A stretch of DNA of 64,000 nucleotides from Rhododendron vialii. Taxonomy: Eukaryota > Streptophyta > Magnoliopsida > Ericales > Ericaceae. Location: the NCBI RefSeq assembly GCF_030253575.1, contig NC_080560.1, forward strand, positions 10,722,501 to 10,786,500. Reading direction: 5' to 3'. The notes beneath the pieces were generated by a model that worked only from the letters and a program-made list of their open reading frames with translations, made no database searches and was not told where the DNA came from. Positions 1-49,221 of the stretch are shown here, one piece after another. Position numbers and translations under genes: made by a program. Positions within the stretch are counted from its first letter, which is position 1, and each line of letters starts with the position of its first letter.

Positions 1-87
1 CCTTACTAGGCTACCAGCTACACCTAACACTGTTGACTTTCACCGAGAAAAAAAACCAAAACTTCATGAGCTTTTGTTACTTCTTGT

Positions 88-2560
88 GAACTCTATTTGA
101 TTCCTCTATTGGCCAATCTACATTAGATAGACGTTTTAAGTACTAAAAGTCCCCAAGTGACTCTCAATACTTGGGTAAGGTCACAAGAGACGTGTCCAAC
201 ATGAATTATTGTCCATCGATCAGCAAGCCTATTTTGTACTTTTGAGTTTTGATTTAACAATGACTATGCATAAGACTCTTGTCTTGTACTAGTGCTCCTT
301 TTCAACTTGTAAATATCAGTTTTTTAACTAGAACATGAAAATATACCTTGAGAAATATAATGTCTAGTTGTCTAGTTGTGGGAACAGGTGATTGGAATAT
401 GGGTTGAAGGATGTTGACACATAGACACGTACAACTAGCATAACCTCCAGTTTGATTGCTTTTTGATTTTTTATTCCACTTTTCACTAGTACCATGTTGA
501 TGAAATCTTCAGACTTTCATCAGGAAATTGTCATAACGCTTTGTCTATGTAATATTGGTTGTGATTTTGGAATGTTATTTACCAAATTTCAAGTAAATCC
601 TCGATGTCCAATAAAGTGCTTTATTTGCAGGGGTGGTTGTTGGTCTTAAGAATTGGCTACGTATAACATTCGCCATTGACCCTGCATCTCTTGAAGATGG
701 CCTAGGGAGGGTAAAAGCTTTCTGTGAAAGGCATGCTAAGAAGCAACAAGTTGAAAAGACAAGTTCTTCCATTTAGCTCAGATGTGGTCAACCCCCTTCT
801 CTGGTAACTTACTGATTCTGCTACATGCCTTTGGCTTATTGTAGAGGATTTCATAGGTTCTGCCATGGGGAGGTAAGTGCTGATCAACTTCTGGATTGAT
901 CGCACGTTTCTTTTAAGTTGGCATAATAATGCGCTTGTTCCTAAAACAAGCTGATCAACTACTGCATGTTGATCGCACATTTAATTTAAAGATGGCATAA
1001 TAATCGCGTGTTCCTTAAGAACTCTGTGTTATTGTACTTTGGGCCGTATGGGGGTCTTGTATTACCCTGTAAAGACATTTGTTGGCTACTTTAGGACCTC
1101 AAATGTTCTCTGCGGGGTGATCTGATCAACAGGGCGTTGATCTCATGCGCCGTTTGAAGTCAGCATCATAGTGTGCTTGTTCCTCAAAAACTATGTTTTA
1201 GTTATTCGATCAATACGATTCTTGTAGTACCCTGTAAAAGTTGGCACACAAGTGGTGATAAAGAAGTCTCAGCGTTGGTTCTCATGCTTCCTCATTTTTT
1301 TGCTTCAATGTTTCCTCAGGGGCGAACCGTTGTGGCTAAATTTTGTTTTCTATTATTGTGTGTTTATTTTAAAAGCAGGAGAATTCTGAATCTTATTGAT
1401 TGTGCTTCGATGGTATCTCTCTTGAATGATGTAGCAATTGTAATTTGAGGATAAAACACAGCATCTTATTCTTGTTTTCGTATCACTTTCCTTTTTCTTT
1501 TCATTTCCCCCTGCGAATTGAAGATCCAAATCATTGAAGTACAGTAAGGAGTGTAGCAAATGTATACATGCCAACTCATTTCCGTCTTATTTTTCCTGTT
1601 CTATAACGTGGAACTGAATACCATAGCCGAAATTTTTTGCTAAGCAATGAGTCATAGATTAGGGGAAAATCCAAAGAAAATTTCACCAACTTTGCTATCG
1701 TGGTAAAATTCTTGTTTCCAAAGTTTGATTCCTCATTTTGGAGGGAAAAATCCAGGGGGAAAACGGAGCATAAAATAAATAAGATTATAATAAAATGGGC
1801 ACATAAGAGAAGATGCATAGCAATAGATGTTCAACACGGCCACTTTGTAAGACTTATACGCAAATTTTAATAGTTTGGGATGTTTTTCAAATACCCTTGA
1901 AATGTACATTGCGATAGAACTCCACTAACTACGTAATAGATTAGATTTATAACACAATGTACTTTTTTTTACCACAAGCGACAGAAGAATACAACTACAA
2001 GTATGAGAACTATATCAAACTGAAAAGAAGTCCAACATCACTTATTGGGCTTGTTTTTAGGTGTTAGCAAATTTTTGGGGTCAATTCATACGAAGTTTTG
2101 CTCCGACTGTAATGAGTTCTCAGCAAGTGGAAGGTGGGATTGGATCCAAGGAATTAGCGGTTAGCACGTAAATTGGTTCGGAGACGTGGACTATCAAAAA
2201 ATTTATAAACCAGACCCAACTAATACCCTCGTTAAGGGAATAAATAATCCTAACAATCGTACAAGAGGAATAGTGTTCACCTGCAGGTGAATACACAAAT
2301 TTATTTCCCAGGCCGCACAAACCGAGCAATTAAATTGAACAGATACCAATGCTATGTCCACTACCATTTCCTGCACATGGACTCACAAGATGCTTATCAG
2401 ATCCGCACATCGTATGGCTTTGAACTAATTTGAAAAGAATTAATCCATTGGTCTATATTTGAACTTGTGCAAAAATGGCTCCGAATTGGTGAAACATCAT
2501 TTTTTAACTTTGATGATAATGCTATTTTGAAACCTAAGGATGTACCTTTAACCAAGTGTT
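88..2560. repeat. Segmental duplication, copy 1 (TAT-A last intron, last exon and 3' flank)
   Basis: This stretch matches about 42598-45570 nearly base for base: intron sequence, the last TAT exon and about 1.8 kb of 3' flank. Small differences include a 12-bp repeat of tgtctagttg near 361. Copy 2 carries a 392-bp insertion (44823-45214) that is missing here; the empty site is near 2237. It also carries a short extra tandem repeat near 44478-44530. Apart from the exon, no gene is visible between 777 and 2560. Confidence 0.85.
631..776 (+). CDS. TAT-A, terminal exon of a tyrosine aminotransferase-like gene (5' part outside the window)
   Basis: This is the last exon of a PLP-dependent tyrosine/nicotianamine-type aminotransferase, which moves the amino group of tyrosine to a 2-oxo acid. 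It follows a TTGCAG acceptor, is 146 nt long and ends at TAG 774-776. It encodes the C-terminal signature GLKNWLR, whose Arg binds the substrate carboxylate in this family, then a helix ending in a Lys/Ser-rich tail. It differs from the last exon of TAT-B (43133-43278) by about one base, so the two copies split recently. Homology to TAT-B begins only near base 88, inside the preceding intron, and bases 1-87 do not match. Whether the upstream exons exist or were lost cannot be judged here. Confidence 0.85.
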
Positions 2561-5271: not shown

Positions 5272-5629
5272 GGTATTCAAAACTCATCATCCATCATACA
5301 TTTGTGTGGTTTTCACCACAAAGTGTGTGAAGTTCATACTAATATGTAATAGAGAAGAGCTATGGGCATTGTCACGTTGTGCCCCATGAATATGAAATAA
5401 TTACTCAAACTATTTTACAACCACATGTTCATGTGGAGGCCATACACTTAGTGATAGACCCCACATAAATGTGTAATTGTAAAATGGTCCGCAATTCTTC
5501 CCCGGACGATTTTATAATTTCACTCTCCTAGTCCCATGCCGAGCAATCCGGAATATCTCACTCTCTCCTCAAAAAACCAAGAAAGTGAAGAAACTACTGT
5601 AACCCCCGCTCACGAAAACTTCCCAAGCA
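5272..5629 (+). promoter_or_regulatory. TAT-A' 5' flank, homologous to the TAT-C promoter
   Basis: This stretch aligns with 46330-46659 upstream of TAT-C. It shares TCATCATCCATC, GTGTAATT, ATTTTATAATTTCACT (a possible TATA element) and a CT-rich leader before ATG. No cis-element assignment beyond that is safe. Confidence 0.5.
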
Positions 5630-5904
5630 ATGGCGACCGGACCGTCACTGAAATGGGATATCAGCCATGCAAACGGAGAAGGGAAAACAGCGTCGGTAAT
5701 CACCGTCAAAAGCGCTCTTGGAAAGATAATGAAGAACCTCAACGAATCCGATACAAGGCCAGTCATCCCTCTCGGCCTCAGTGACCCGTCAGTGTTTCCG
5801 TGCTTTCGGACCACCCGTTCGGCCGAGGACGCCATTGTTGACGCCGTTCGATCTGCTAAGTTCAACTGCTACGCTCCCGCCGTTGGCATTGAGCCAGCCA
5901 GGAG
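5630..5904 (+). pseudogene. TAT-A', orphan exon 1 of a tyrosine aminotransferase
   Basis: The 275-nt exon 1 is the same length as exon 1 of TAT-C and starts [18 protein letters not shown]. It contains the conserved substrate-side segment ending CFRTT and stops at CCAGGAG. In TAT-C this point is the splice donor (AG before GTAG at 46935). Here the donor and everything after it are gone, and PEP carboxylase coding sequence begins at once. The TAT frame runs out of frame into it and stops at 5942-5944, so no aminotransferase can be made. The PLP lysine and all later exons are absent. Confidence 0.85.
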
Positions 5905-6299
5905 ATTCTATTGTAGTTGCCAAATCTTTCACCCACATGCTTAACTTAGCCAATTTGGTTGAGGAGGTCCAGATAGCTTACTACCGCAGGATTAAGTTAA
6001 AAGAAAGGTGTTATTGCTGACGAGGCATCTGCAACAACTGACTCAGACATCAAAGAGACCCTCATGAGGCTTGTGGTGCAATTGAAGAAGTTTTTGATGC
6101 TTGAAGAACCAGACAGTAGATTTAGCTCTTACGGCACATCCTAATCAATCAGTCCGAAGATCTTTGCTTCAAAAACATGCACGGTATGGCCTACAATCTG
6201 CAATTGTGATAGTTTGCAGATCACTCGTTTGCTATTTGGTTCAATTTTTTGCTTTTGGATGCCCACTGGTCCCTTGGATTTCAGTTCTAACCTAGTCGC

Positions 6300-6696
6300 T
6301 GTTGACTTTTGTGGCTCCAACCCAAGCCTGCATTTGCTCAGCAGACAAGGAGCCTCCCAAATCTTTGACTGATATCCTCCAGTATCCTTCAGCCTCCTTT
6401 GTGGAAAATGAAGGGAGACTACCGTGGCAAATGAACAGGGTCTCATCTGGCTATAAATGGAGACCTTTGGTTCAGAGTGTTGTATCAGAAATCAGAGAGA
6501 AGAGAGTGATACACGAGTAGATTGTGAGGCAATACTGTGTGAGTCTGAGTGATTGTTGTAATCCTCCTCCAGTAAATATAGTGAATCCGCTGCCCCTCCG
6601 TGGATGTACCCGATTATTGGGGAACCACGTAAATCCTTGTGTTTCTCTGTGTTGTGTGTTTGTGTTTGCTTGGTTTGACTCTTATTTAGCACTACA
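6300..6696 (+). repeat. 5' LTR of the copia element
   Basis: TG...CA bounded, 397 bp. A GGCTATAAATGG stretch at about 6450 is a good TATA candidate for the element's own transcript. By eye it is identical to the 3' LTR. Confidence 0.95.
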
Positions 6697-7585
6697 ATTG
6701 GTATCAGAGCACGTAGTGTAGAACCAAGAACACAAAAACCACCATAGTTTCCGACTCTGCTTCTCAGTCCGTGTTCTGTCCGAGTCACAGAGCCACGTTT
6801 TTTTTTGATCCAAGAATCCGTTTGACCACTGAGTCTTGTGCGTCCTTGCGAGACGATTCCAACGCACCAAGACCCATTGGAAACGGAGTAACAACGAGGT
6901 CACACGCTCCGTTCGACGGTTGAGCGTGAAAGAAGCTGCTGCTCGCCGGATCTGTTTTTTTTTCAGAAAACAGAGTTTTTTTACTTTAATATCTGTAAGG
7001 AGGAAAACCAGGTGCTGGTTTTTTGACTAGTCAAAGCCAGGGGAAATTATCCAGTGCTACTGGCTCACCTAGAGACGCTGATGTCAGCTTGACATCATCG
7101 ATCCAGAAGCTTTAGAAGGCCAGAAGGTTACGCCAGGCAGCACGCCACGTGTCACCCAGTCAGCAGACACGTCATCTGCCACATCATCAGAGAGGCTGAG
7201 TCATCAGCCACGTATTCAGCCACGTGTCTTTCCACGTCAGCGCCAGGTGTGCGCCACATCAGCAAAAAGGCCCAGTCATTAGCGCCCAGTCAGCATTTAT
7301 TGCTGAGTCAGCAGGTCCAGTCAGTCCTAACCAGAGGGAATATTCTCTGATCCAAGGAATATTCCAGAAGGTGTTATTTTGCGATTTCGGAGCCATTTCA
7401 ACTCTGATTTGCGCAAGTGAGTAGTCGTTCCTGACTATTCTCGACGTTCCGGATCCAACGCCGCACTTCGTTTTCCGCAACTCAGCTCTGACATTGGTGT
7501 TTTGTCCGTTGGTTGGCTAAAAAGCGCCGTTTTTTGGTGTTTTTGTGCACCGGATATTCACGTGGGTGGAGTTTAAGGAGTTCTA
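6697..7585 (+). promoter_or_regulatory. Copia leader with primer-binding site and a cluster of ACGT-core motifs
   Basis: After the primer-binding site (6699-6710), the leader has a run of repeated CAGTCAGCA/GTCAGC words between about 7075 and 7330. Five ACGT cores fall within about 90 bp, including two perfect G-boxes CACGTG at 7146-7151 and 7221-7226. ACGT cores of this kind bind plant bZIP/bHLH factors in general. A regulatory role here is inference only. Confidence 0.55.
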
Positions 7586-10500
7586 ATGGCGGAAGAAGAG
7601 TTTAAGGAGACCTCGGAAGTTTCTTCATCTGCAGAGAAGAATACCGAGCATCCCAAGGTCACTTCGAGCAGTTATGGGCAAAGGAATACGGTTTCCAATG
7701 CTAAGTTCGAGGTGGAGAAATTTGACGGAACAAGTAACTTCGGCATGTGGCAATGCGAAGTTTTGGATGTTCTGTATCAACAGGAGTTGGATATTACGTT
7801 AGAGGAGAGGCCGAATGACATTTCAGACAAGGATTGGATAAAGCTTAATCGCCAAGCTTGTGGCACCATCAGACTTTGTCTTACGAAGGATCAGAAATAC
7901 TTCGTGATGAAGGAAACGTTAGCTAAAGAGCTATGGGAGAAATTGGAAAACAAGTACATGACGAAGAGTATTGAGAATCGGTTGTATCTCAAGAAGAAGC
8001 TCTACGGGTTCCAGTATGTGCAAGGTACGACTATGAACCAACACTTGAACAATTTCAATAAGATTTTGGCTGATTTGCAAAATCTAGACGTTTCCATAGA
8101 AGATGAGGATAAAGCTTTACTGTTGTTAAATTCATTGCCTGATACTTATGATCATTTGACTACTACTTTATTGTACGGTAAAGAAGAAATCAAGTTTAAT
8201 GACGTTTCAAATGCTTTGATGAATAACGAGGTACGGAAGAGGGATCAGCAAGCTCACCGTGACCCGTCCGCATCAGCTTTGACAACAAGAGGCAGAACCG
8301 ACACTAGGAGGACTGGTGGTGGAGGGCGAAGGAGGTCTCGCTCAAAATCAAGGGGGAAGTCTGTAGAGAGAAGATTGGGGAAAGACGAGTGTGCCCTTTG
8401 TCGTCAAAAGGGGCACTGGAAGAAAGATTGTCCGAACAAACAACCAGCTGCAAATGTTGCAGAGGAGACAGAGGATGATCTAGAGTCAGCACTATTAGTT
8501 TCATCATCACCTGACCATTCAGATGAGTGGATACTAGATTCGGGATGTTCCTACCACATGTGTCCCAACAGGGACTGGTTCTCGAGTTTTCAAGATCTCG
8601 ATGGAGGAGTTGTTTTGCTAGGCGATAACACCGCTTGCAAAGTCCAAGGGATAGGTTCAATCCGTTTGAAGTTGCATGATGGGACGTTTAGGGTGCTAAC
8701 AGACGTTCGGTATGTTCCGGACTTGAAGAAGAATCTCATTTCGCTTGGAGCCTTTGATGTGAAAGGATACAAGATTACGATGATGGGTGGAGTGCTAAAG
8801 ATAGTTCGAGGGGCGCTCATTGTCTTGAAAGGTAGCCGAAAAGGAAACTTGTATTTCCTAGACGGTTGCACAGTCACAGGGAGAGTGGCCGTTACTACTA
8901 GCTCAGACGAAGACGATGCATCCAAGCTATGGCACATGCGTTTAGGGCATGCTGGCGAGAAGGCCTTACAGGGTTTAGTAAGGCAAGGCTTGTTGAAAGG
9001 GGCCAAGACAGGGAAAGTTGGCTTCTGTGAGCATTGTATATTGGGCAAACAAACTCGAGTCAAGTTTGGCACTGGAGTTCACCGCACAGAGGGGATTCTT
9101 GACTATGTTCATTCAGATGTTTGGGGGCCGACCAAAAATGTAACTTTGGGAGGCAAACGATGGTTCGTGACATTTATTGATGATTTCTCCAGACGTGTCT
9201 GGGTTTATACCATGAGGCACAAGTATGAGGTCCTTCCAATCTTCCTTCAGTGGAAGAAAATGATGGAGACGCAGACAGGAAGGAAAATCAAGAAGCTGAG
9301 GTCAGATAACGGTGGCGAGTACAAGTCAGATCCTTTTCTCCAAGTCTGTCGGGAGGAGGGGATAGTCAGACACTTCACAGTTGCGGGGACGCCGCAGCAG
9401 AATGGAGTAGCAGAGCGCATGAATCGTATTTTGGTGGAGAAAGTTCGGTGCATGTTGTCAAATGCCGGGCTTAGCAAGGCGTTCTGGGGTGAGGCTCTCA
9501 AATATGCCTCCCATCTTGTCAACCGTTTACCGTCAGCAGCAATCGGAGGGAAAACTCCGATGGAGGTATGGTTTGAGAAACCAGTTACAGATTATGATTC
9601 ATTACATGTTTGGGGTTGTTCTGCTTACTATCATGTAACTGAGTCCAAGTTAGATCCACGAGCCAAGAAAGCTGTTTTCTTGGGTTTCACTTCAGGTGTT
9701 AAGGGATACAGGCTCTGGTGTCCCGAGTCCATGAAGGTGATTCTAAGTAGGGATGTTACTTTCGACGAATCTGCTATGTTACAGCAGGTTCCTTCCAAGG
9801 AGAATGTGGAGCCGAATGCCCAGCAGCAGGTGGAGCATTCAGAACAGGTGGAGGTTGAGACTCCCCTTGTTCCAGCCAAGACTGTTCAGACAGTCAGCCG
9901 TCCTGAGGATCAACCCGTTGATCAGGATGTCATTATTGAAGAGGAGGCTTCATTACAGGAAATACCACAGCAGCCAGAATCCATTGCAACCAGCAGACCG
10001 AGGCGGGAAATCCGGAAACCTGCTCGATATGCTGATACAGTAGCTTATGCACTTCCAGTGACAGACGATGATGTCCCCTCCACTTACCGGGAGGCAGTGC
10101 AGTGTACAGATAGTAACAAATGGAAAGAGGCAATGGATGAGGAGATGGGTTCACTCTCCAAGAATCAGACATGGGATTTGGTTCAACTTCCCAAGGGCAA
10201 GAAATCTATTGGCTGCAAGTGGGTTTATGCGAAGAAGGAAGGTACAGGATCTGAGAAAGTCAGGTTCAAAGCAAGATTGGTAGCCAAGGGTTACGCACAG
10301 ACAGAGGGGATCGACTACAACGAGGTGTTCTCCCCTGTCGTCAAACATTCGTCGATCAGGATCTTGCTTGCATTGGTAGCACAGTTTGACCTTGAGTTAG
10401 CCCAACTCGATGTCAAGACCGCTTTTCTACACGGAGATCTGGATGAGGAGATCTATATGGCTCAACCAGATGGTTACAGAATTGCAGGAAAGGAGAATTG

Positions 10501-11653
10501 GGCTTGTAAACTGAAGAAGTCGCTATACGGGTTGAAACAGTCGCCAAGACAGTGGTACAAGCGCTTCGATCGGTTTATGATGGAGCAGGGGTACACAAGA
10601 AGTCACTTTGACCATTGTGTTTACTTCTGCAAACTCCCGGATGGATCATTTGTCTATTTGCTCTTATATGTAGATGACATGCTGATTGCATGTAAGAGCA
10701 AGGTGGAGATTGACAGACTGAAGGCTCAACTCAGTAAGGAGTTTGACATGAAGGATCTCGGGGAGGCAAAGAAAATACTCGGCATGGAAATTCAGCGGGA
10801 CAAGGCGAAAGGCACAGTTTGTTTGACTCAGACGCAGTATCTGAAGCGAGTGTTGCAGAGATTTGGGATTGACAGGAAAGCCAAACCTGTCAGTACACCT
10901 TTGGCCGCTCATTTTAAACTTAGTGCATCGATGTCGCCGCAGAAGGAAGACGAACGGAAGCAAATGGCTCAGGTTCCTTATGCCAATGCTGTGGGAGCTT
11001 TGATGTATGCTATGGTTTGTACGAGGCCGGACATTTCACATGCAGTTAGCATGGTCAGTCGATACATGCACAATCCAGGGAAAGAGCACTGGCAGGCTGT
11101 GAAATGGATTCTACGGTATTTTCAGGGTACTGTGGATGTTGGATTGAAGTACGAGAGAAACAGAAAACTTGGTCAGCATTTGGTTGGTTACGTGGATTCC
11201 GATTATGCTGGTGACCTAGATAAGCGACGGTCGACTACAGGGTATGTGTTTACACTTGCTGGAGGGCCAATCAGTTGGAGGTCAACGTTACAGTCAACGG
11301 TGGCTTTGTCTACTACAGAGGCAGAGTATATGGCAGTGACAGAGGCTTTCAAGGAAGCTATTTGGGTACATGGTTTGATTGAGGACTTGGGAATTGTTCA
11401 AGAAAACGTGGAGGTTTTTTGTGACAGTCAGAGTGCCATCTGTTTGGCGAAAAACCAGGTTCACCATTCCCGCACCAAGCATATCGATGTTCGGTTTCAT
11501 TTCATCAGGGAGATTGTAGAGGAAGGGGATGTTCTTCTTCAGAAGATTCCGACTGCAGATAACCCTGCGGATATGCTCACCAAAGTGGTTGCAGGGATCA
11601 AGTTCCAACATTGCTTGGACTTGATCAACATCTCTCGAGCAGTGCGCGCCTAA
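7586..11653 (+). CDS. Copia gag-pol polyprotein, 1355 aa, intact
   Basis: A single open frame encodes all parts needed for copia transposition. The gag domain occupies about residues 40-240. A CCHC zinc knuckle follows (CALCRQKGHWKKDC, from residue 269). The aspartic protease has active site DSGCS from residue 318. The pre-integrase motif LWHMRLGH lies near 447. Integrase has D511, D574 and E610, with the usual 35-residue gap between the last two. Reverse transcriptase has YVDD at 1028-1031. RNase H begins near GYVDSDYAGD with Asp1204. The order protease-integrase-RT-RNase H identifies copia, not gypsy. The start at 7586 (MAEEEF) is the first ATG of the long frame. No stop or frameshift was seen. 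Length is typical (about 1300-1400 aa). Confidence 0.97.
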   Translation: MAEEEFKETSEVSSSAEKNTEHPKVTSSSYGQRNTVSNAKFEVEKFDGTSNFGMWQCEVLDVLYQQELDITLEERPNDISDKDWIKLNRQACGTIRLCLTKDQKYFVMKETLAKELWEKLENKYMTKSIENRLYLKKKLYGFQYVQGTTMNQHLNNFNKILADLQNLDVSIEDEDKALLLLNSLPDTYDHLTTTLLYGKEEIKFNDVSNALMNNEVRKRDQQAHRDPSASALTTRGRTDTRRTGGGGRRRSRSKSRGKSVERRLGKDECALCRQKGHWKKDCPNKQPAANVAEETEDDLESALLVSSSPDHSDEWILDSGCSYHMCPNRDWFSSFQDLDGGVVLLGDNTACKVQGIGSIRLKLHDGTFRVLTDVRYVPDLKKNLISLGAFDVKGYKITMMGGVLKIVRGALIVLKGSRKGNLYFLDGCTVTGRVAVTTSSDEDDASKLWHMRLGHAGEKALQGLVRQGLLKGAKTGKVGFCEHCILGKQTRVKFGTGVHRTEGILDYVHSDVWGPTKNVTLGGKRWFVTFIDDFSRRVWVYTMRHKYEVLPIFLQWKKMMETQTGRKIKKLRSDNGGEYKSDPFLQVCREEGIVRHFTVAGTPQQNGVAERMNRILVEKVRCMLSNAGLSKAFWGEALKYASHLVNRLPSAAIGGKTPMEVWFEKPVTDYDSLHVWGCSAYYHVTESKLDPRAKKAVFLGFTSGVKGYRLWCPESMKVILSRDVTFDESAMLQQVPSKENVEPNAQQQVEHSEQVEVETPLVPAKTVQTVSRPEDQPVDQDVIIEEEASLQEIPQQPESIATSRPRREIRKPARYADTVAYALPVTDDDVPSTYREAVQCTDSNKWKEAMDEEMGSLSKNQTWDLVQLPKGKKSIGCKWVYAKKEGTGSEKVRFKARLVAKGYAQTEGIDYNEVFSPVVKHSSIRILLALVAQFDLELAQLDVKTAFLHGDLDEEIYMAQPDGYRIAGKENWACKLKKSLYGLKQSPRQWYKRFDRFMMEQGYTRSHFDHCVYFCKLPDGSFVYLLLYVDDMLIACKSKVEIDRLKAQLSKEFDMKDLGEAKKILGMEIQRDKAKGTVCLTQTQYLKRVLQRFGIDRKAKPVSTPLAAHFKLSASMSPQKEDERKQMAQVPYANAVGALMYAMVCTRPDISHAVSMVSRYMHNPGKEHWQAVKWILRYFQGTVDVGLKYERNRKLGQHLVGYVDSDYAGDLDKRRSTTGYVFTLAGGPISWRSTLQSTVALSTTEAEYMAVTEAFKEAIWVHGLIEDLGIVQENVEVFCDSQSAICLAKNQVHHSRTKHIDVRFHFIREIVEEGDVLLQKIPTADNPADMLTKVVAGIKFQHCLDLINISRAVRA

Positions 11654-11701
11654 GGGCGCAGAGGGCAGTGTTGATTCAATGATTGTCGCCAAGGTGGAGA
11701 T

Positions 11702-12098
11702 TGTTGACTTTTGTGGCTCCAACCCAAGCCTGCATTTGCTCAGCAGACAAGGAGCCTCCCAAATCTTTGACTGATATCCTCCAGTATCCTTCAGCCTCCT
11801 TTGTGGAAAATGAAGGGAGACTACCGTGGCAAATGAACAGGGTCTCATCTGGCTATAAATGGAGACCTTTGGTTCAGAGTGTTGTATCAGAAATCAGAGA
11901 GAAGAGAGTGATACACGAGTAGATTGTGAGGCAATACTGTGTGAGTCTGAGTGATTGTTGTAATCCTCCTCCAGTAAATATAGTGAATCCGCTGCCCCTC
12001 CGTGGATGTACCCGATTATTGGGGAACCACGTAAATCCTTGTGTTTCTCTGTGTTGTGTGTTTGTGTTTGCTTGGTTTGACTCTTATTTAGCACTACA
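11702..12098 (+). repeat. 3' LTR of the copia element
   Basis: This LTR is 397 bp and apparently identical to 6300-6696. It is followed by the second GTCGC target duplication at 12099-12103, after which PEPC intron 1 resumes and ends at TTTCTAG before 12191. Confidence 0.95.
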
Positions 12099-15000
12099 GT
12101 CGCCACAATGCTATGTGACAAATGTGGTATTTGTTTTCCGTGGCTTAAGTTTCTATTGATGAAATCCTTCTTCCTCTTTTATCTTTCTAGGATTCGGAAT
12201 TGTTTGACCCAATTGTACGCCAAGGACATAACCCTTGATGATAAGCAAGAGCTTGACGAGGCTCTACAGAGGGAGGTATGATTGTTTTAGAATTTGTTTA
12301 TGTTCTGTCCTACTTCTACTATATATATTGGAATTACTTTTATTATGGAGAAATGCATGCGATGTTTGGCCATTTGTTATAAGTTTCGGATGTTTTGTAA
12401 TCTCTCTGTTAGTTTTTCTCTTTGCTTTGGAATTAACACACCTCCTCTATACCGTGCAGATACAACCTGCATTTCGTACTGATGAAATCCGGAGGACACC
12501 TCCTATTCCCCAAGATGAGATGAGGGCAGGAATGATCTACTTTCATGAGACAATCTAGAAAGGTGTCCCAAAATTCTTACGCCGTGTTGACTCTGCTTTA
12601 AAGAACATAGGCATAAATGAACGTGTCCCCTACAATGCCCCTCTAATTCAGTTCTCTTCTTGGATGGGTGGCGATTGTGATGGTATGATCCTTTTCCTCA
12701 AACCGGTTTTCATAGATGGTGAAATTTGAGTGCAAGGTAGAGCATGCACGCAGCCATGCCTACCAAATTATGTATTGTTAGCCTAAGAGCTATTTTGAAG
12801 TGGAATGCAGGAAACCCAAGGGTAACTCCAGAAGTTACAAGGGATGTATGTTTGTTGGCTAGGATGATGGCTGCTAATTTGTACTTCTCCCAGATAAAGG
12901 ATCTTATGTTCGAGGTATCGGGCAATTGCTTCCACTCTCATACTTTTTCCTCCCTGGATCTTTTGTTATTTTCTATAGCTTCAGGAATTTCTGATATGCT
13001 ATTCATTGCTTTTCTCTTTCCATACTTTCTTGGCAGCTGTCAATGTGGCGGTGTACTGATGAACTTCGTGCTCGCGCTGATGAACTTCATAGGTTGTCAA
13101 AGAGAGATGCAAAGCATTATTGGTGTGCTTCACGCAAAACAGCATTTCCAACTTTGACTTGACGCTGTTCACATATTTTAGAGTGGCTCTTTGCTTTAAT
13201 CTGTCATGTTTTCATACTACCTTTGACAATCTGTAAATAAAATGTCGACTTTAGAAGTTAATGTGTTAGGTATTTCCATCAACATTCAAGTCCTGTTTGC
13301 ACAGGAGACAGGATCATAGGTTTAACGGGGTGGCATTCTAATACTTGGCCAAGTAATGTTTGGATAGATTGGGGAAACTCTTTCTGTAGGTTGAGATTCA
13401 CGTTATGCATACTGCAAAAATAAAACATAAAAAATCCTCCGCTCACTGAATTTACTTAAGAGAAAGTTATGTATTTCCAATTTGGTTTTTACTTTTGCAC
13501 TCATGATTCCATCCATGCAGAGTTCTGGAAACAAATTCCTCCAAATGAGCCCTATCAAGTTATTCTAGGTGAGGTAAGGGACAAGCTGTATCATACTCGT
13601 GAACGTGCTCGCCAGTTATTAGCCAATGGCTTCTCTGATATTACTGAGGAGACAACTTTCACAAACGTTGATCAGGTCTATTCTCGTCAGTAACTTTCTT
13701 GAGTTTTTCGTACCAACAAAATGTGAACCATAAACGACCAACTCTATCCTCTCTTGCAGTCTGATTTTTTTTTTTAGGGCAGAATTGTTCATTATGGTGT
13801 GCATATCTCTAGTTGTCACGCTTTGACACTTATGTAAAGTCTGATATTCCCACCTTGAGTCTCACTTTATGCAGGAAAATGTGTGGATCTCTAAAAAACA
13901 CAGATATGTGGGAGGAAGACCTCTTTCTTTGTCCCTTGTTTTTTTTTTTTTGGTTTTGTTTCTGGACATTTCATCTGTCATTGATGTGAATAGGATTACC
14001 ATTCTAACTTTTTGAAGAAAATTTGGGTGAGGTGGTGTACCTGTTAAAATGTAAATACCAAAAAGGAATAGAGTGCAAGCGAAGGGTGGTCATTCTTGAA
14101 GTGTTGATTTTTGTGGAATGCAACAAATTGATCTTTTTTCTTACTCTTCTCTGTTTCCCTTTTACTTTCTTGGGTATTTTTTCCCTTGATACTTCTTTGG
14201 ATTTTCCATTAATCGCATGGTTCTACGTTACGTATTACATCAAGGGTCAAGGGTGGCATCATGTCACTAAATGACTGGCATTTCTCCCTTGCCTTCTGGC
14301 TCTTTAACTTATGGCAGATCTTTGTTACCCTAGACAGAAGAAGACCCCTTCTGCAAATTATATTATACCAATTTGCCACAGATAAATTACTGTACTATAA
14401 AGAGCAAGAATATGTGTTATACATTGATACACTCAGAAAACTGTGTTGCTTTTCTTATTGACTATTTGTCTTCATTTCTTATTGGTTGTTACTTGTTTCT
14501 GCAGTTCATGGAGCCTCTGGAACTATGCCATCGATCGCTCTGTGCTTGTGGTGATCGGCCAATTGCTGATGGAAGCCTTTCTGATTTTTTACGGCAAGTC
14601 TCCACCTTTGGACTGTCTCTTGTGAGGCTTGACATCTGGCAAGAATCAGACAGGCACACTGATGTTATAGACGCCATTACCCGGCACCTAGAAATTGGGT
14701 CCTACAGAGGGCCTGAACAAAAAAGGCAGGAGTGGCCCTTATCCGAACTCAGTGGCAAGTGTCCTCTTTTCGGTCCCGATCTTCCCAAAACTGAAGAAGT
14801 CGCCGATGTTTTGGACACTTTCCATGTCATTTCTCAACTCCCCTCAGATAACTTTGGAGCCTACATCATTTCAATGGCGACTGCATCGTCTGATGTGCTA
14901 GCCGTGGAGCTTTTACAGCGTGAGTGCCGAGTCAAGCAGTCGTTAAGGGTGGTACCACTTTTTGAAAAACTCGCGGATCTTGTATCCGCGCCAGCTTCTT

Positions 15001-17271
15001 TGGCTTGTTTCTTCTCAATTGATTGGTATAGGAACCGGATCAATGGAAAGCAAGAAGTCATGATTGGGTACTCGGATTTGAGTTAGGATGCCAGTCGTCT
15101 GTCTGCTACTTGGCATTTGTATAAGGCCCAAGAGGAACTCATAAAGGTGGCAAAGCAATACGGGGTGAGGCTTACTATGTTCCACGGTTGAGGAGGGATT
15201 GTTGGAAGAGGAGGCCAGGATGTCCCACACACCTTGCATATTGTCCCAGCCACCATACACGATTCATAGGTCGCTTTGTGTGACGGTTCAGGGTGAAGTC
15301 ATTGAGCAGTCTTTCGGGGAGGAGCACTTATGTTTTAGAGCGCTCCAACATTTCACAACAGCGACACTAGAACATGGAATGCATCCTCCAATCTCGCCAA
15401 AGCCGGAGTGGTGTGCACTATTGGATGGGATGGCAGTTGTTGCCACGAAGGAATATCGTTCTATAGTTTTCCAGGAAACTCGTTTCATCAAATACTTCCG
15501 CCTTGTAAGTATCATTGCAAGTCTTGATCTTTTTTGACCTTTCGGTAACATTCAGAACCATCCTAAGTTCGTAATATAATAACCTCATGATCATTTCGAC
15601 GCAATGAGAAAATATGCTTCTTTCGTCCCCATTTGTTTGTTTGTTTTCACTATTCTTCATATAGAGTATCGCTTTAGACAATATTGAAAATTTTGTTTAG
15701 AGATGATTTCAGAAACTTTGTTAAGCAAAAGTCAAAACTAATTGAGATCTTTCGATTGATGACAAAAGTCTGGATTTTTTTCTTCTAAAAATACATAATC
15801 TGTTGATCCCATTGAACGGCTGACCAATTAGTGGGGACAGAAGGATTATTTCTCTTGTGTCGCAACTCGCAACACAAACACTTTTGAAGGTACTACTTTT
15901 CTTGTTTAAGGTTGAAACGTTTTTTGCTTCATTGTTCTTTGATATTCTCTCGGATATTACTGGTTCTGTTTGTACTACATGGTATCTATGGAGATTGTTA
16001 CCTGATTAACCTATGAAGAAACTGAATTCATTTTTTCCCTTCAAATATTGAAGGCAACACTAGAGATGGAGTATGGTCGTATGAACATAGGAAGTCGTCC
16101 ATCAAAGAGGAAACATTGAATCTCTCCGGGCAATTCCCTGGATCTTTGCTTCGACCAAAACGAGGTTTCACTTCCCGGTCTGGCTCGGTTTGGGAGCTTC
16201 ATTCAAGCATGTCATTGAGAAGGATGTAAAAAATCTCCACATGCTGAAGAAAATGTACAACCAGTGGCCTTTCTTCAGAGTGACCATTGACTTGGTTGAG
16301 ATGGTGTTTGCCAAAGTAGATCCAAGGATTGCTGCTTTGTATGACAAGCTTCTAGTGTCAGAAGACTTGCGGCCATTTGGAGAGACTTTGAGAGCAAACT
16401 ACGAAGAAACCAAGAGCCTTCTCCTCCAGGTAATATAAAGGAAAATTGCTGGAATATTGCATCTAAAGAACTCTAAGTCTATGATCAAGAAACATGGAAA
16501 CAGCCGAAACTTTTCCCTTACCTGGGAAACCGCAACTAGATTTTAGAACTCGAAATTCCAATTTTTCTACCTACAGAAACCAAAAGTCACATAAACATGT
16601 CAAGATTATACAAAACATACTAAAGCATCGAGTTATTTCGACACCTGTTAGAGATATTGCCGTTTCCAGTATTTCCCTAGTCTTATTGTTTCAACGTACT
16701 ATATATGTTTTGGCTTATTTTCAAAGCTTTTCCGAAACACTTTTTTTCCCTAAACCGAAATGACATTTTTGGTCAATGAGTTCTTCACTACAAGTCTACA
16801 ACAGGACAGCTCAACTAAGTTTCGGCAATATTTGTCGTCTCCATAATGTAAGTACGGCCTCATATTTGGTGGAGTTGAGACAATGTGACCTTGTCTTAAC
16901 CTCAACTAGCATTTGCACAATTCCCTCTAAAAACCACAATCTTCATAACCCAATCGTAAAAAAAATCATCGCAATGTATCAAGATGATGGAAGAGAAAGG
17001 ATCTATGCAGCACAATGCATTTGCATCCGTGGACAGTGATATGAATTTTGATGTAAACCCGTAACGGTTCGGAGCATGGGATCTGATTAAAATTTTCACG
17101 AGGCATGCAATTCCGGCATTTGATTGCCAAATCACCAGTCCGACAAACCTACCTTAGCATATTGCATTCTAGCTAGGGGTGTTGAAATCTAGTTCGTGGG
17201 ACTACTCATTCCAGTACTAATCTCATGTGACTATGTAACAAGGCTTAAATTTATCCTTATTTTGTTGAGAA

Positions 17272-17405
17272 ATGCTAGGTACAAGGAAAATATACCCTGA
17301 AATCACTCGGAATACACTTGTAGAGGTATTTTATGACTGGTCATAAATACGTCTACAAGTGTATTCTGGGTAATTTCCGGGTACGCTTTCTTTGTACCTA
17401 GCACT
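17272..17405. mobile_element. Foldback MITE in the last PEPC intron
   Basis: This is a near-palindrome of about 134 bp: GCTAGGTACAA at the left, TTGTACCTAGC at the right, with arms containing GAATACACTTGTAGA and its complement. The centre is near TGACTGGTCA. It lies between PEPC exon blocks 8 and 9. Confidence 0.6.
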
Positions 17406-17860
17406 TTTGTATTTTGTTTCCCTATTTTTGGAGATCGCTAGCTGGTCACAAGGATTTACTTGAGGGAGACTTGTACTTGAAGCAAAGGCTCCGTCTTCGT
17501 GATGCAAAAGCTCCTTCTTCGTGATGCATACATCACGAAGTGGATTCGTGTGCCAGACCTACACGCTGAAGCGGATTCGTGACCCCAGCTATGATGTGAA
17601 GGTGAGGCCGCATGGCCCGCATCTATCCAAGGACTGAAGGACATAACCGAATCTAGCAAGCCCCAAACTGCAGAGCTAGTCAAGCTTAACCCCACTAGTG
17701 AATACGCTCCCGGGCTTCAAGACACGCTTATCTTGATCACGAAGGCTACGCTTATCTTGACCAGGAAGGGTACGCTTGACCATGAAGGGTATAGCGGCAG
17801 GAATGTAGAACACCGGTTAGGTGCCTGTTATTTTCTTGTACATTCTCCGTTCTTTTGACT

Positions 17861-17905
17861 TGATGTGCTAGCCGTGGAGCTTTTACAGCGTGAGTGCCGA
17901 GTCAA
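17861..17905 (+). repeat. Exact 45-bp copy of PEPC exon 7 sequence
   Basis: Bases 17861-17905 repeat bases 14891-14935 without a mismatch (start TGATGTGCTAGCC, end GCCGAGTCAA). The sequences differ immediately on both sides. It lies 41 bp beyond the PEPC stop position. Confidence 0.95.
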
Positions 17906-18619: not shown

Positions 18620-18686
18620 TTTGGTCCATGATATTTGAACAAGATAGCATTTTGTTTTAGTTCTTAATTACTCTATCAGTCCCGCT
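17906..18686. other. Intergenic, with a (TA)n tract and a diverged repeat
   Basis: No gene is visible. A (TA)n microsatellite lies at 18573-18617. The stretch of about 18062-18240 resembles about 28131-28315: GCGTAGCTCACTTCT, CCTACCTCATAATGTGAGC and a GCATTACC-GGACACAACCA block recur in order. Confidence 0.5.
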
Positions 18687-21600
18687 AATAGGTGCCTCTG
18701 GGGCATAAGTTTAGGGCACTAGTTTACGGTTCTTTTAAATGCTTTAGGTGCAATAAATATACTTAATCCATAAGTTGTGTTTATAGATACTCACAAAATA
18801 TTAATTTTCACCACTATTTTCTAAACTACCCATAAATATTTGTAATACTTTTTTTTAATGACAATACTACCCTCATTTCCATTTAAAAATTAGGTAGCCG
18901 AAAGGTTTTCAGTGCAAATGAAAAGATTACGTACAAATCTTGGCTGCTTCTTCTTCTTCTTCTTCTTTTTTTTTTTTCCTGTTGCAGAAAACAACGTAAC
19001 AAGGAGACGGAGATGCATTTGGATTTGGTGATATGACGAAGAAGCTTAGTTGGGTCAACCACATCAAAACAATAATCGAAAAAAATAAAATCTAATATTA
19101 GAATATCTTTATAATATGGGAAATTAATAATTGGATAATACTACCACAAACAACTAAATAAAAATTCAGGAGTTTCAATTTTTAATTTCTAAAAGAGAGG
19201 AAAAAAATTACAGTTGTATAACAACCGTACAAAATTCGGGAGAGATAACAAAAATAAAATTTGACCAAAACTCCAATTTCTAATACTTCACACAAAATAT
19301 AGGATTCAATCCAATGTCGCTCGGAGTGGCTTTCTTCTTCTTTTGTGAACCAGTGATGATGTTTTCCTTCTCTGGACTTGTAGTAAAATTGTGTCCGATA
19401 CTCTTACACAATCTACAAGTCTTGGTTTGTTTTCCTCCTTCCCTTCCACCTTTCACTCTTTTTCTTTTCGGACGACCTTTGGTTTTCGAAATCGGAGGAC
19501 AACCAACTTCGTTGAGCATATCAACATTTTCATCCGGCAATAATTTCTCTCCCGAAACTTGAATATCCTCTCCCGAAACTTGGAAACGATCCTCAACTTG
19601 CAATGCTTGACGGCACCAACGTGATGGCAGATAATGAGAAGGAATTTTATAACAATCCTTACGAAGAAACACACTTAAAATGTGCCGACAAAGGATTCCC
19701 CAAAATTGAAAATGCTTACAACTACATAATGCCGTTTCCCCATCCCAAAACACATTGTGCCATTTATTGTAACGTGTTTCCTCGTAATACTTCAACACGA
19801 ACGTATGGCCATCCTCATGGGTCAAAGAATATAAAGCAGCTCTCCCAAACTGCTCTTGGAACTTTTTGAAACAATACGGTGTAAGAATATTATGAGCTTG
19901 CTCTTCCAATGGTGACATTGTTCTCAACGTGGAACCTCTATACGTTTCCAACATTGTGTCATGCAATTGTACTTGGTCAATGTCTTCAATTGCAAGATCG
20001 ACCTAAAATTTTTATTACAACTTTTAGGTAAACAATGATATTTATATCGGAATGTAAAAGATAATATGAACATGTCTACAAACCTGTTTAACAAATTGTC
20101 CAAGATTGGTGTGAGAGCTGATAAACCGTCTCATAAATTCGTTTATACTCTCCGATCTTCCCGTTGTTGTCATGCCTCCGAAAAAATAGCCGCGAAGATA
20201 AGTTGACACCCAAAAATGCTTAATTTCGTACAATCCAATGACATGCTTGTTGGTGTGCAACTCATACTTTGCAACCACTTGAGGCCACTCTCTTTCAAAG
20301 TCTTCAGGTGCATCCAAATTATATAACTTATAAAAATCAGCACACCAATCTTGGTATCTATTTCGGAGAAGGGAGGTGAACCAACCACTGAATTTAGAAG
20401 TGATGTGCCATATGCAAAAACTATGTTTGGTGGATGCCAATTCTTCTGAAATTGCTTCCGTCATCCATGGATCTTGGTCTGTTATGATGGTTTTAGGTGG
20501 TTTCTTCATCACAGACAAAAAAGTCTACATGTCAAAGTTAAAAGAGATTAGTATCATAACCACAAGAAATTGACATATAATAACCATTAAAAAAATTAAA
20601 TAATAGGTTACCTTCATTAACCACCGGAAAGTGCTTGTTGTCTCATTTCGAAGTAAGGCACAGCCAAATAGAATAGTCTTCCCATGATTATTGACTCCCA
20701 CAAAAATTCCGAAAGGCATTTGATATGCATTGATCTTATAAGTAGTATTGAAAACAACGACATCACCATATTTTTGGTACCAATCAATACAATGCGCAGC
20801 AGACCAAAAAATGTGCTCTAACTTTCTTTCTTCATCCAGTGTAAACACATATTGAAACTTGCAATCTTCTTCTTTTGCTATTTTGCAATATTGCAAAAGT
20901 TCCATTGCATCATTGGCATCTTGCTTCTTCCTAACTTTAGCAAAAGGTTACGCACATCTTTTTCTAAAAATGGAAGATAACCATGGTTGACATGTTTTTC
21001 AAGCTCAATGACCCGCATAATTTGCCTAACTAAAAGTCCTCCTTCTTTGAGCATGAGGATACGCTTTTCATCCGTTTTCCGTTATTGTACGATTTGATGG
21101 AAGGAATCGGGTTACTGAAGGGGATAATAACTCGTGGTTGTGATAAAAAACAAATGTAGTGGCATGACATTCTTGTGGGAAAATATCAGAAGACTTCCGT
21201 AATTTGATACGCATATGAGCTTGACAACCACATTTCGATCAATGATAGTCTGTTACGTTGTTCTTTGGAAGGATCCACAATTTTCAAAGGAGTCTTTCCT
21301 TCACGATGGCAAAAAAATTCTCGCCTTTTAACTTCTCTATTTTTTGTGATGAAGCGGCCTTTTCGGATGGCAAAACCATTTCTATCGGCATAATTTTTGT
21401 AAAAAATGAGAGCCTCCTCTTCGCTGAGAAAACATTGTCCAAGAAAAGGTTGAAAGTCATTTTCTACTAAACCGTTCATCTCTTCGACACTTTCACCAGA
21501 TTCTATATTTTCATATTCTTGAGGAATTTCATTCAAGTCAAAAGTATTTCTTCTTTTCATTTGATTTAACTCACAGTCCAAACATTCATCATCCATAGTC

Positions 21601-22181
21601 CTACAAATTAAAATGTCAATATTTGGTGAAAATAGCAACAACAAAAAAAAGAACTAGATCTTTATCCAGTCAAATAATATAAAAATTCTTTCCAAATAAC
21701 TCAAAAATAAAATGAACCTAAGAAAAAGTTCATACCTTTGTAATGTCCTTAGGAAAATGAATGCAACAAGCTTGAGGACATGATTTGTAAGAACTTGAGC
21801 TTGAGATCGAACAAAGGAATGTAACAAGTTGAGAACACAGTATTTTTTTTTCATATAGTTGAAACATAACGTCAAAGATTGGAAGAACTAAAAAAATTGC
21901 TCCACTCTTATATGGAAAGAAACTAGCGGCAAGTGAAAAACTTCCATATGAAGAGTCAGACTCACATGCATGTTCAATGAAAATTTCCCTCTAAAACAAT
22001 ATTGTCCTTAGTGATCAGGAAGAGTTTTGTTATATTTTGTCATTCAAAATATTGTTTGACTTCTTTTAATGGAGTAGTTTGCATTCTCAATGTTATTATT
22101 AGTAGATGTTGGAATGAGTATAAAAAATTTAATTAAAACACTTTAAGTGCTTCTAACTTGTGCCCCAGGGCACCTTGTAGC
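18687..22181 (-). mobile_element. MULE with FAR1-type transposase, decayed
   Basis: The left end reads GCTAATAGGTGCCTCTGGGG. The right end, in reverse complement, reads GCTACAAGGTGCCCTGGGGC. Similarity continues for about 37 bp, giving terminal inverted repeats for a roughly 3.5-kb element. Inside, on the minus strand, are transposase exons of the FAR1/Mutator family (see 19280-21599). No clear 9-bp target duplication was found, which fits an old insertion. The alternative is a domesticated FAR1-related gene, but the inverted repeats and frame damage favour a transposon. Confidence 0.7.
19280..21599 (-). pseudogene. FAR1/MULE transposase-like gene, frameshifted
   Basis: Read on the minus strand, the N-terminus starts MDDECLDCELNQMKRRNTFD at 21599. 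It is followed by the FAR1 DNA-binding region (EEALIFYKNYADRNGF). The frame breaks near 21235, beside the conserved CGCQAHMR, and again near 21080 and 20945. The MULE transposase core (about 20525-20905) reads VVVFNTTYKINAYQMPFG. Family members usually have Asp in FDTTY, so the first catalytic acid is Asn here. The second acid is kept in ITDQDPW (20042-20518). The last block (19280-19966) holds a SWIM zinc finger (CSCKHFQFWGILCRH) and a C-terminal CxxC knuckle whose last Cys is Ser. A candidate intron lies at about 20519-20535, and a longer gap at about 19967-20041. Active transposition is unlikely. Confidence 0.75.
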
Positions 22182-22194
22182 ATTTGACTTGCTC

Positions 22195-22202
22195 TATAAA
22201 TA
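22195..22202 (+). promoter_or_regulatory. TATA box of the CYP716-like gene
   Basis: TATAAATA lies 81 bp before the start codon at 22283. It is only 13 bp beyond the end of the MULE inverted repeat at 22181. Confidence 0.55.
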
Positions 22203-22282
22203 ACATGGAAGCTTACTGGAGTAGTAGATTTCCAGTACTCGATTCCTAACTAATTTTACTATCTCCCAGAAACAGAAACTTC

Positions 22283-24804
22283 ATGGAAGCTTTCTCACTA
22301 GCCATTGCTTTTCTTCTTATCTTTTTCACTATCAGCTTCTTTGCTTTCAGAAATGCATCCAGTAGTGCTGATTCAAACCTGCCACCGGGCGGCTCCGGGT
22401 GGCCTATTGTGGGCGAAACCCTGGATTTCATGGTAAACCCCGAGAAGTTCGTTAGCGATAGGATGAAGAAACACTCTCCGGACATCTTCAGGACCAATTT
22501 TTTCGGAGAAAAGATTGTGATCATATGCGGCCCCAATGGCCACAAGTTCCTCTTCTCCAACGAGGACAAGCACTTCACCGCCTACGTGCCCAAGGCCATG
22601 CAAAAGCTCTTCTTGTCCACCCAATTACAGAACTCCGATAAGGTTCTGAGCAACGACGAGATGAAGTTGCCACGGTTCATGGCATTTTTTTTGAAGCCCG
22701 AGGCGTTGGTCAATTACGTGGCAGGTAATTCGATCTATATCTATTACTCCTATCTACAAGCAAAGTTGTCGGGAAAAAAAATCTTCATACAGCATGATCT
22801 GGCGTTTCACATTTCTCCGTTTTTAAAAAATCTAAAGTCATATTCTTATATAGATGACACTGCCAGACCTGACAGTGTCATTGTCGTGCATGAGATTTCT
22901 GAGCAGTAGTTTTTCTTGCTTGGCAGGTATGGACTCCATTATCCAAAAACAGTTGAAGACTCACTTGGAAGGCAAGGCCGAAGTGAAGATGCACACTTTC
23001 TGCAGGTCCATAACCTTGACCCTCGCGTGTCGCTTCTTCTTGGGCCTCGAAAACCCAGAAAGGATCGCGAAACTCGTCGGCCAGTTCGACAAAGTGACCC
23101 ACGGGATTCACAATCTTCCTCTGAACATCCCCGGGACCGCGTTTCACAACGCGGTCAGAGCCGCCTGGGTGATTCGCAAGGAGCTCGTGGACGTCATAGC
23201 GGAGAAGAGAGCGCGAGTGGCTTCCGGGGCGCCTACTCAGGATGTGTGCACTTCGATGGTTGTTGAAGGGATGTCGGATGAGGAAATCAGTGAGAAGATA
23301 ATGGCGTTTTTAGTGGCTGGATATAGTACAGTTGCTAACACCATTACTTTCTTCGTGAAATTTGTTGGAGAGAGACCTGATGTTTATCACAAGATCTTAT
23401 CAGGTAATTAAAATTTTTGTTTGATTGTTTTAATGGTTCTTCTATCGTTTAGAGAAATTTGAATAGACCAAAAAGAAAGAACTTAAGGTAGATAAACTAG
23501 AAGTAATAGGGAATCCTAGGAGTTGGCTTGACGATTAAGGTTTCAGTTAAGGACGGAACCAGAATTTTACCTTAGCAGTAACGAAATGTATACTAAAAAA
23601 ATCTAATAGTGACGAGACTATATAAGTTGGACATAATTTTTTTTTTTACATATAATAATTGTATTTTTTAAAATTCTTGTCGTGGCGATTGCCGCTACTA
23701 GACCCCCCCCCCCCCGGTCCTATCCTTGGTTTCAGTTTTACGAATTAGAGTGTTCATGAATCATCAAGCCGTCGTCGCGTGTAGCGAATAAGGCAATAAG
23801 GTTTCTGTTAGTGCTGTAATTTGTTGTTCATAGTAAGGTTTAAAAGATACTTAATTAGAATCGAATTTCTTTCTGCTAGATCTCATGATCAAAACCTCGT
23901 ACATACTACATATTATAAATTCTTATGGTTCAGTTCATTTGAAGCTTTGTCTCGACTGTAAATTTGTAACCTGCTAATGAACAGTGAGGTTGGTTCTCCA
24001 AAAAAAATATATACGTTTTTCTTGCATGCCTTACTTGTACACAGACTGATGTACCTAACTTTTTTTTTTCTTTCCCTTTTTGTGAAATTTAGAGCAATTG
24101 GAGATCTCAAAGTCAAAACAAGCAGAAGAACTCCTATGCTGGGGTGACATGCAAAAAATGAAGTACTCCTGGGCTGTTGTGTGTGAATCAATGAGGGTGA
24201 TTCCTCCGGTTCTAGGAACTTTCAGAGAGGCCATAACCGACTTTTCATATGCTGGTTTCACTGTTCCAAAGGGGTGGAAGGTGTGAATATAAACATGCAT
24301 AATTAAGAAATTAAAAAAGAACTTAGAATGTTTTGTTGGCTAGTCAGTATTAATCTCTCTTTCACACACACACACGTGTGTGTGGCTTCATCATATATAA
24401 GTAAGTCCACGTATTAATCACACACACACACACATATGTAGCTTCATCATATATAAGTAAGTCCAGATTAATTGCCGTCATGACTATATTTTTATTTTCA
24501 GGTGTTTTGGACCGTTAACACGACACAAAGAAACCCTGAGTACTTTCGGGAACCGTATAAATTCGACCCGTCAAGATTCATGGAAGGTGACGGAATGCCA
24601 TTGTACACTTTTGTGCCATTTGGAGGAGGACCTAGAATGTGCCCTGGGAAAGAATACGCTCGATTCGTGATCCTCGCTTTCATCCACAACTTGGTTAAAA
24701 AGTTTAAATGGGAAGTGGTTGTCCCTAATGAGAGAGTTTTAGGTGGCATGATGCCATACCCGGAGAACGGACTTCCGGTTCGACTGCATCCTCGCTACGT
24801 TTAA
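22283..24804 (+). CDS. CYP716-family-like cytochrome P450, four exons, about 469 aa
   Basis: Membrane-bound monooxygenase of the family that oxidises triterpene skeletons in many eudicots; the substrate here is unknown. Exons are 22283-22724, 22927-23403, 24093-24280 and 24502-24804, all with GT-AG borders and consistent phases. An N-terminal hydrophobic anchor (residues about 5-22) is followed by the hinge [13 protein letters not shown]. The K-helix ExxR is ESMR, the PERF-like motif is FDPSRF, and the heme loop is [13 protein letters not shown] with the Cys ligand. MKYSW and FREAITDF are family hallmarks. Oddities: the oxygen-binding I-helix reads AGYSTV, where family members usually have an acid (GGHDT). 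The loop before it is about ten residues shorter than in typical CYP716A. Intron 2 holds a hAT MITE (23548-23728) and intron 3 a duplicated CA-rich segment. Probably expressed; activity is uncertain because of the I-helix change. Confidence 0.85.
23548..23728. mobile_element. hAT-type MITE in P450 intron 2
   Basis: This is a 181-bp element starting TAAGGACGGAACCAG and ending CCTATCCTTG (imperfect inverted ends). It is bounded by an exact 8-bp duplication, GTTTCAGT, at 23540-23547 and 23729-23736. It contains a run of 14 C. It is related to 58426-58599. Confidence 0.8.
24366..24465. repeat. CA/GT microsatellite with a duplicated 30-bp flank in P450 intron 3
   Basis: Two CACACA tracts are each followed by a copy of GCTTCATCATATATAAGTAA with CTCC-free spacing. 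The unit is about 60 bp. It lies within the intron between 24280 and 24502. Confidence 0.7.
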
Positions 24805-37747: not shown

Positions 37748-38265
37748 CTGTATACAGTTCACAGTTAACAGAACATCTGAAGACTGTTACAATACCAATT
37801 GTTTATTATTAGCATTAAACAAACCAAGGGATTCATAGCCAGATAGAGGACGTTCCCCTATCCAAAACATACTCTTCTTTGATACGGGCCTTTTCCACGT
37901 AAAAAGGATTTATTTGCATGCGACCATCAAGGAGAAGTAATAGTGATTATTGAAGGATCGAAGCCCATGTGTTGCATTAAAAGAAGACGTCAATGAGCTT
38001 TAACAAAGCGGTATCATGAGATTCGACCATTTGACATCCAATTGACTTGATCATGGAAATCGTTTCACAATGGCAAATTCTCGCAATATCAACATATCCA
38101 TAGACCTAAATATAATAGGAGCTGAGCATATTCATTGAACTGTAAGGCGAACCAAAAGATTTCATGTGTGTAAAGATAATCCTTGAATCTGATATATCAT
38201 TTAACTATTTCAGGGGGGCACGAGAAGAGAAAGCAGTGTATAATTGTCTTTCACTCACCCCTCCC
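37748..38265. other. Intergenic 5' flank of TAT-B
   Basis: No gene seen. Confidence 0.4.
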
Positions 38266-38400
<135 letters not shown>

Positions 38401-38450
38401 GTCGGCCTATACCTGTTGATTATCCGGAGTGAACTAGAGAGAGAAGAGAG

Positions 38451-49158: not shown

Positions 49159-49221
<63 letters not shown>

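Follow-up and report, generated by a model that had tools for sequence, protein, structure and literature searches.

The window (the whole stretch of 64,000 nucleotides analysed here, C4:10,722,501-10,786,500 of Rhododendron vialii) contains a cluster of tyrosine aminotransferase (TAT) genes; our searches of its own genome covered the 532.6-Mb assembly in 13 contigs. TAT-A, with seven recognisable TAT exons, straddles the left edge of the window and starts about 3.6 kb outside it, and its 3′ end together with downstream intergenic DNA (1-2521, plus strand) is paralogous to the 3′ end and flank of TAT-B (42598-45505). TAT-B (38415-43278, plus strand) carries a deletion and a frameshift, both in exon 2. 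TAT-C (46660-51856, plus strand) is the apparently intact relative of TAT-A′, a gene represented, also on the plus strand, by a 5′ flank (5405-5629) and exon 1 (5630-5904). The first exons of TAT-A′ and TAT-C (46660-46934) differ at 15 of 275 nt and in 14 of 91 codons (dN 0.050, dS 0.079), and TAT-A′ has the motif GLSDP where TAT-A, TAT-B and TAT-C have GHGDP. The remainder of TAT-A′ is missing: within 5905-38000 tblastn gave no match to TAT exons 2, 3, 5, 6 and 7 at E ≤ 0.1 and none to exon 4 with an E below 0.8, and blastn gave none to the TAT-C introns at E ≤ 1e-3.

Directly after TAT-A′ exon 1 the window reads into a 5′-truncated PEPC pseudogene (exons 2-10; 5899-17820, plus strand). We found nine PEPC exons past the join, and the printed borders of the downstream introns read GT...AG in 8 of 8 cases, which bears out the sequence-only reading in its claim that the introns were kept and that a genomic segment was joined. 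That reading had also called the joined PEPC part exon 1. Plant-type PEPC genes are given ten exons in passages of three papers (PMC3355170, PMC7177731 and PMC8435749), and a part of a fourth (PMC4085955) counts the sequenced region of exons 8-10 as 511 of 973 residues and puts the glucose-6-phosphate-site residues in exons 2-4. The nine exons found, taken with the ten-exon structure and the published placement, identify the joined exon as exon 2. Alignment to the parental PEPC bore this out: in the sister locus, which we call P2 and which contains C4:11,164,021-11,192,163, and in a PEPC gene at C4:4.01 Mb that appears intact (L008, L020; no internal stop in its ten exons), VQ(E/D)CYE comes immediately after intron 1, and this position puts the PEPC side of the join 94 nt into exon 2. 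The first 91 PEPC residues of the reference L002, a 970-residue plant-type PEPC protein from a bacterial-record contig that was used for tblastn only, are absent from the window at E ≤ 0.01.

A whole-genome search with exon 2 returned three places: the window, P2 (C4:11,191,866-11,192,161, minus strand, 89%) and the apparently intact PEPC (C4:4,015,686-4,015,975, minus strand, 74%). The PEPC of P2 is a pseudogene too, with its own stops in exons 5, 7 and 8. The window copy and P2 have both lost the same 11 bp of exon 9, a deletion that the apparently intact gene does not show; PEPC was therefore dead before it was copied. Further lesions belong to the window copy alone, namely a 1-nt insertion and deletions of 13 nt and 1 nt in its exon 2 (5899-6183, plus strand, without the first 94 nt). 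With exons 2-10 of a ten-exon gene recognisable and disabling lesions present, the window copy is a plant-type PEPC pseudogene. A 45-bp exact copy of part of PEPC exon 8 (14891-14935) lies at 17861-17905, 40 bp past the PEPC stop.

We analysed the junction between TAT-A′ and PEPC (J1) base by base. The join is gapless, with PEPC codons starting right after TAT-A′ exon 1, and the BLAST match between TAT-A′ and TAT-C (5405-5904 / 46435-46934) ends exactly at 5904 / 46934. Past 46934 TAT-C continues with its donor GTAGAA; past 5904 the window continues with the PEPC codons ATTCTATTGTAGTT. The junction is real, and TAT exon 1 reads directly into PEPC. The sequences at J1 are GTTTGGATGCAGGAGATTCTATTG in P2, GAGCCAGCCAGGAGGTAG in TAT-C and GAGCCAGCCAGGAGATTC in the window. 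When the sister PEPC of P2 (‘GGATGCAGGAGATTC’) was used as a proxy for the donor, the overlap between TAT and PEPC proved to be CAGGAG, 6 nt at 5899-5904 (plus strand), a sequence with which TAT-C exon 1 ends and which also occurs within exon 2 of the sister PEPC. The overlap had earlier been put at four bases, GGAG, read off the chimera alone; comparison with both parents lengthens it to six. The claim that TAT-A′ keeps all of exon 1 holds in so far as the exon is 275 nt long, but its last 6 nt may derive from either parent. An overlap of at least 6 nt is expected by chance in 0.13% of joins by formula and in 0.16% in a simulation with these sequences.

The break in TAT-A′ coincides with a splice donor. 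A break interval of 4-7 nt would touch any of the 12 TAT-C exon edges, some of them approximate, in 1.2-1.9% of cases. We agree with the sequence-only reading that the match to the exon edge is probably chance, a mild coincidence picked after the fact. Its description of a dead chimera in which the two frames disagree also stands, as the reading frame that opens at 5630 runs for 104 codons before a stop.

The homology to P2 does not stop at PEPC. Positions 5899-38194 of the window (plus strand) are collinear, in 22 pieces, with C4:11,192,163-11,164,021 on the minus strand, a source of 28.1 kb on the same chromosome, 403 kb away, inverted and about 94% identical. The feature had been delimited as 5630-6183 and is far larger, since the homology to P2 covers 5899-38194. 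By the same token, the earlier view of a genomic join with microhomology was right about a join at the DNA level, but not about a PEPC piece joined by itself. The copied content comprises PEPC exons 2-10, the 45-bp filler, a partial cytochrome P450-like gene with interrupted frames (22189-23418, plus strand) and further DNA. In P2, PEPC exon 1 is still present, as are the 94 nt with which exon 2 begins, and this makes P2 the source-like locus and the window copy the truncated one; since P2 is still in place, the DNA was copied. Insert and P2 were compared in those 18 of the 22 plus-strand matches whose aligned length exceeds 250 nt; of the 19073 sites aligned there, 1097 are mismatched (5.8%; range 1.7-11%). 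This collinearity identifies J1 as the left end of a segmental copy in inverted orientation: an old one of about 28 kb inside the TAT cluster, and an ordinary rearrangement scar.

The copy received transposons after it was made. A Copia LTR retrotransposon in PEPC intron 2 (6300-12098, plus strand) is absent from P2, which serves as the empty site and marks the insertion as recent; its 397-bp LTRs are 100% identical, it is flanked by a 5-bp target duplication (GTCGC), and it retains an unbroken frame of 1358 aa. A FAR1/MULE-type element at 18677-22188 encodes SWIM, MULE and FAR1 domains, each in a frame of its own. It is flanked by an exact repeat of CTCTAT with 8 of 9 bases matching, which fits a 9-bp target duplication. 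This element is not in P2 either and is most likely, for that reason, a later arrival.

At the right edge (J2) homology to P2 ends at 38194 and homology to TAT-A begins at 38415, leaving a zone of 220 bp (38195-38414) that is mostly (CT)n(TA)n and that matches neither the source locus P2 nor the TAT-A 5′ flank. The homology of TAT-B to TAT-A starts 36 bp before the ATG (38451). Unless its promoter includes the 220-bp stretch, TAT-B has lost everything beyond this point.

From the arrangement of these sequences, we consider it likely, at a probability of about 0.8, that J1 is the left breakpoint of an inverted segmental duplication into a pre-existing TAT cluster. The starting state would have been a tandem cluster of TAT-A, TAT-A′, TAT-B and TAT-C, into which a 28-kb stretch with the dead PEPC and the P450-like gene, lying 0.4 Mb further along the chromosome, would have been copied in inverted orientation. 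On the left, TAT-A′ through the end of exon 1 would have been joined to the interior of PEPC exon 2 at the common CAGGAG; on the right, the copy would have ended about 220 bp short of the TAT-A/TAT-B homology, which starts 36 bp ahead of the TAT-B ATG. The TAT-B promoter, as far as 36 bp from the ATG, and exons 2-7 of TAT-A′ would have been lost on the way, their place apparently taken by the insert. We infer that J1 and J2 were made in a single event, which could have disabled two TAT genes, one by truncation (TAT-A′) and the other by loss of its promoter (TAT-B).

The route may have been template switching primed by microhomology (of the MMBIR/FoSTeS type), or the copying of a broken fragment followed by microhomology end joining; the DNA fits both. 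Microhomology-mediated end joining, which is carried out by an enzyme of the polymerase theta type, resembles our case in the 6-nt overlap at J1 and in the loss of target DNA (TAT-A′ exons 2-7). It differs in that the piece here is 28 kb long and its source was retained, so that a prior copy would be needed. Passages of published work describe MMBIR/FoSTeS for human copy-number variants (PMC2621351) and list it among the mechanisms given for plant CNV (PMC12073271). The likeness to it lies in a distant segment copied inverted and joined at a few shared bases: CAGGAG provides these bases at J1, and P2 is retained with 28 kb of collinear DNA. In contrast to MMBIR/FoSTeS, clean microhomology is seen here at one junction of two, because at J2, the second switch point, the unmatched, microsatellite-rich 220 bp mask any that was there. 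Non-allelic homologous recombination was rejected, as it needs long homology at the breakpoint and the parents of J1 share only 6 nt. In its inverted orientation, its identity of about 94% and its distance of 403 kb, the insert is like any ordinary interspersed intrachromosomal segmental duplication, and nothing essential sets it apart; it is only that TAT-A′ happens here to be cut at a splice donor. The rearrangement thus belongs to a known kind, microhomology end joining or template switching.

The inferred order, in which the TAT duplications precede the insertion, was assessed by comparing divergences. The 5′ flanks of TAT-A′ and TAT-C differ at 50 of 224 sites by MAFFT (0.22±0.03), or at 34 of 216 (15.7%) when taken from the BLAST match less the exon. 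Over the whole TAT unit 282 of 6422 sites differ in 6 matches (4.4%), with 4.5% at the left end, 2.6% in the middle and 10% at 5405-5904. TAT-A and TAT-B (-3677 to 2521 versus 38415 to 45505) are least diverged mid-gene, and divergence increases outward, a pattern that looks like gene conversion. As flanks that are 16-22% diverged stand against 5.8% between insert and source, the insertion seems to be younger than the TAT array. Most simply, TAT-A′ would be a long-standing paralog of TAT-C, TAT-A and TAT-B would owe their likeness to gene conversion, and the insert would have been added afterwards. There is, however, a contrary signal, in that the divergence of most of the TAT unit (2.6-7.7%) exceeds that of the insert only slightly, if at all, and the exon 1 dS is likewise close to the insert divergence. 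Because most of the TAT unit, at 2.6-4.5%, is less diverged than the insert, the order rests on about 290 nt of the TAT-A′ 5′ flank together with an assumed gene conversion.

The same contrary signal lends some weight to the alternative that a single template-switching event wrote the whole locus. Replication would then have left TAT-C where its exon 1 ends, run through the inverted segment and come back 36 bp before the TAT ATG, so that TAT-A/TAT-A′ and TAT-B/TAT-C would be giant direct repeats around the insert. The block of homology between -3677 to 5904 and 38415 to 46934 begins and ends beside both edges of the insert, as this scenario predicts, but an insert that interrupted an older tandem array gives identical edges. 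The divergence of the TAT-A′/TAT-C 5′ flank, by either estimate, is well above that of the insert. We regard such an origin as unlikely, while keeping it in mind. If it were true, direct repeats of 8.5-9.6 kb would flank the insert like a giant target-site duplication, and gene conversion and uneven rates would account for the differing divergences.

Much less probable is an inversion with staggered breaks that left inverted duplicates at both ends of a segment. The two copies do lie in opposite orientation on a single chromosome, with 403 kb between them, but such an inversion predicts a TAT copy beside P2. The 90 kb surrounding P2 gave no TAT match (E ≤ 0.01; the exon 4 query was out of frame), and both TAT units in the window are direct; on these two grounds the inversion was rejected. 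We give similarly little credence, and if anything slightly less, to an assembly misjoin between the TAT cluster and the PEPC locus. The TAT copies are alike enough to mislead assemblers, but the window is free of any N, and the insert, about 6% different from its source and with separate transposon insertions, is not a misplaced copy of P2.

That a double-strand break in TAT-A′ captured just a short genomic piece of PEPC would agree with the microhomology at J1 and with the retained introns. It is very improbable, however, since homology to the source continues past the PEPC stop and through the P450-like gene to 38194, and it was ruled out by the collinearity with P2. The 45-bp filler past the PEPC stop could have been taken for a repair scar at the right end of a captured fragment, but this too was ruled out, because P2 has it; it is an older templated insertion and not a scar of the J1 join. 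Just as hard to sustain is the delivery of the PEPC fragment by a transposon of the Pack-MULE or Helitron type. The FAR1/MULE-type element inside the copy would suit it, but the absence of that element from P2 and the lack of any element sequence separating TAT from PEPC at J1 led us to reject it; moreover, none of the 9 inverted-repeat pairs of at least 60 nt in the window flanks the segment. Finally, an mRNA-like exon-exon join by reverse transcription or chimeric intron loss, placing the first base of a PEPC exon directly after TAT exon 1, accords with a TAT side that stops at a splice donor but is next to impossible with the later PEPC introns kept (8 of 8) and the PEPC break 94 nt inside exon 2 instead of at its first base, and a processed (retro)gene fusion was ruled out by the position of intron 1 in P2 and the apparently intact PEPC. 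For a plant gene family, precise intron loss has been proposed to arise through microhomology between splice sites (PMC5716013); the present join did not come about in this way, as its PEPC break sits within an exon.

With the inverted segmental duplication as the preferred reading, two genes that seem fused at a splice site can turn out to mark one end of a large segmental copy, whose source and base-level junction could be recovered from the plant's own genome. We propose no function for the locus, which is otherwise an ordinary genome scar. A transcript running from the TAT-A′ promoter into the PEPC pseudogene is possible and would be sense, not antisense. It had been suggested that such a transcript could give rise to small RNAs against the functional PEPC. 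This suggestion now looks weak: the pseudogene shares a single exact stretch of at least 21 nt (24 nt) with the apparently intact PEPC, which makes small-RNA action on that gene unlikely, and the near-identical P2, with which it shares one hundred such stretches, is itself a pseudogene.

Two long imperfect hairpins, at 57519-57833 (141-nt arms, 89% complementary) and at 61982-62333 (170-nt arms, 82%), are possibly foldback elements. In a collection of viral contigs, plant PEPC gave one match of 17 residues, and in one of genome contigs a single plant-type PEPC coding sequence, that of the bacterial record L002. The reference L002 (74-2986) comes from a 3.2-kb contig filed under Agarivorans sp. 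Toyoura001 and encodes an intronless plant-type PEPC of 970 aa, which we take to be probable contamination by maize C4 PEPC cDNA.
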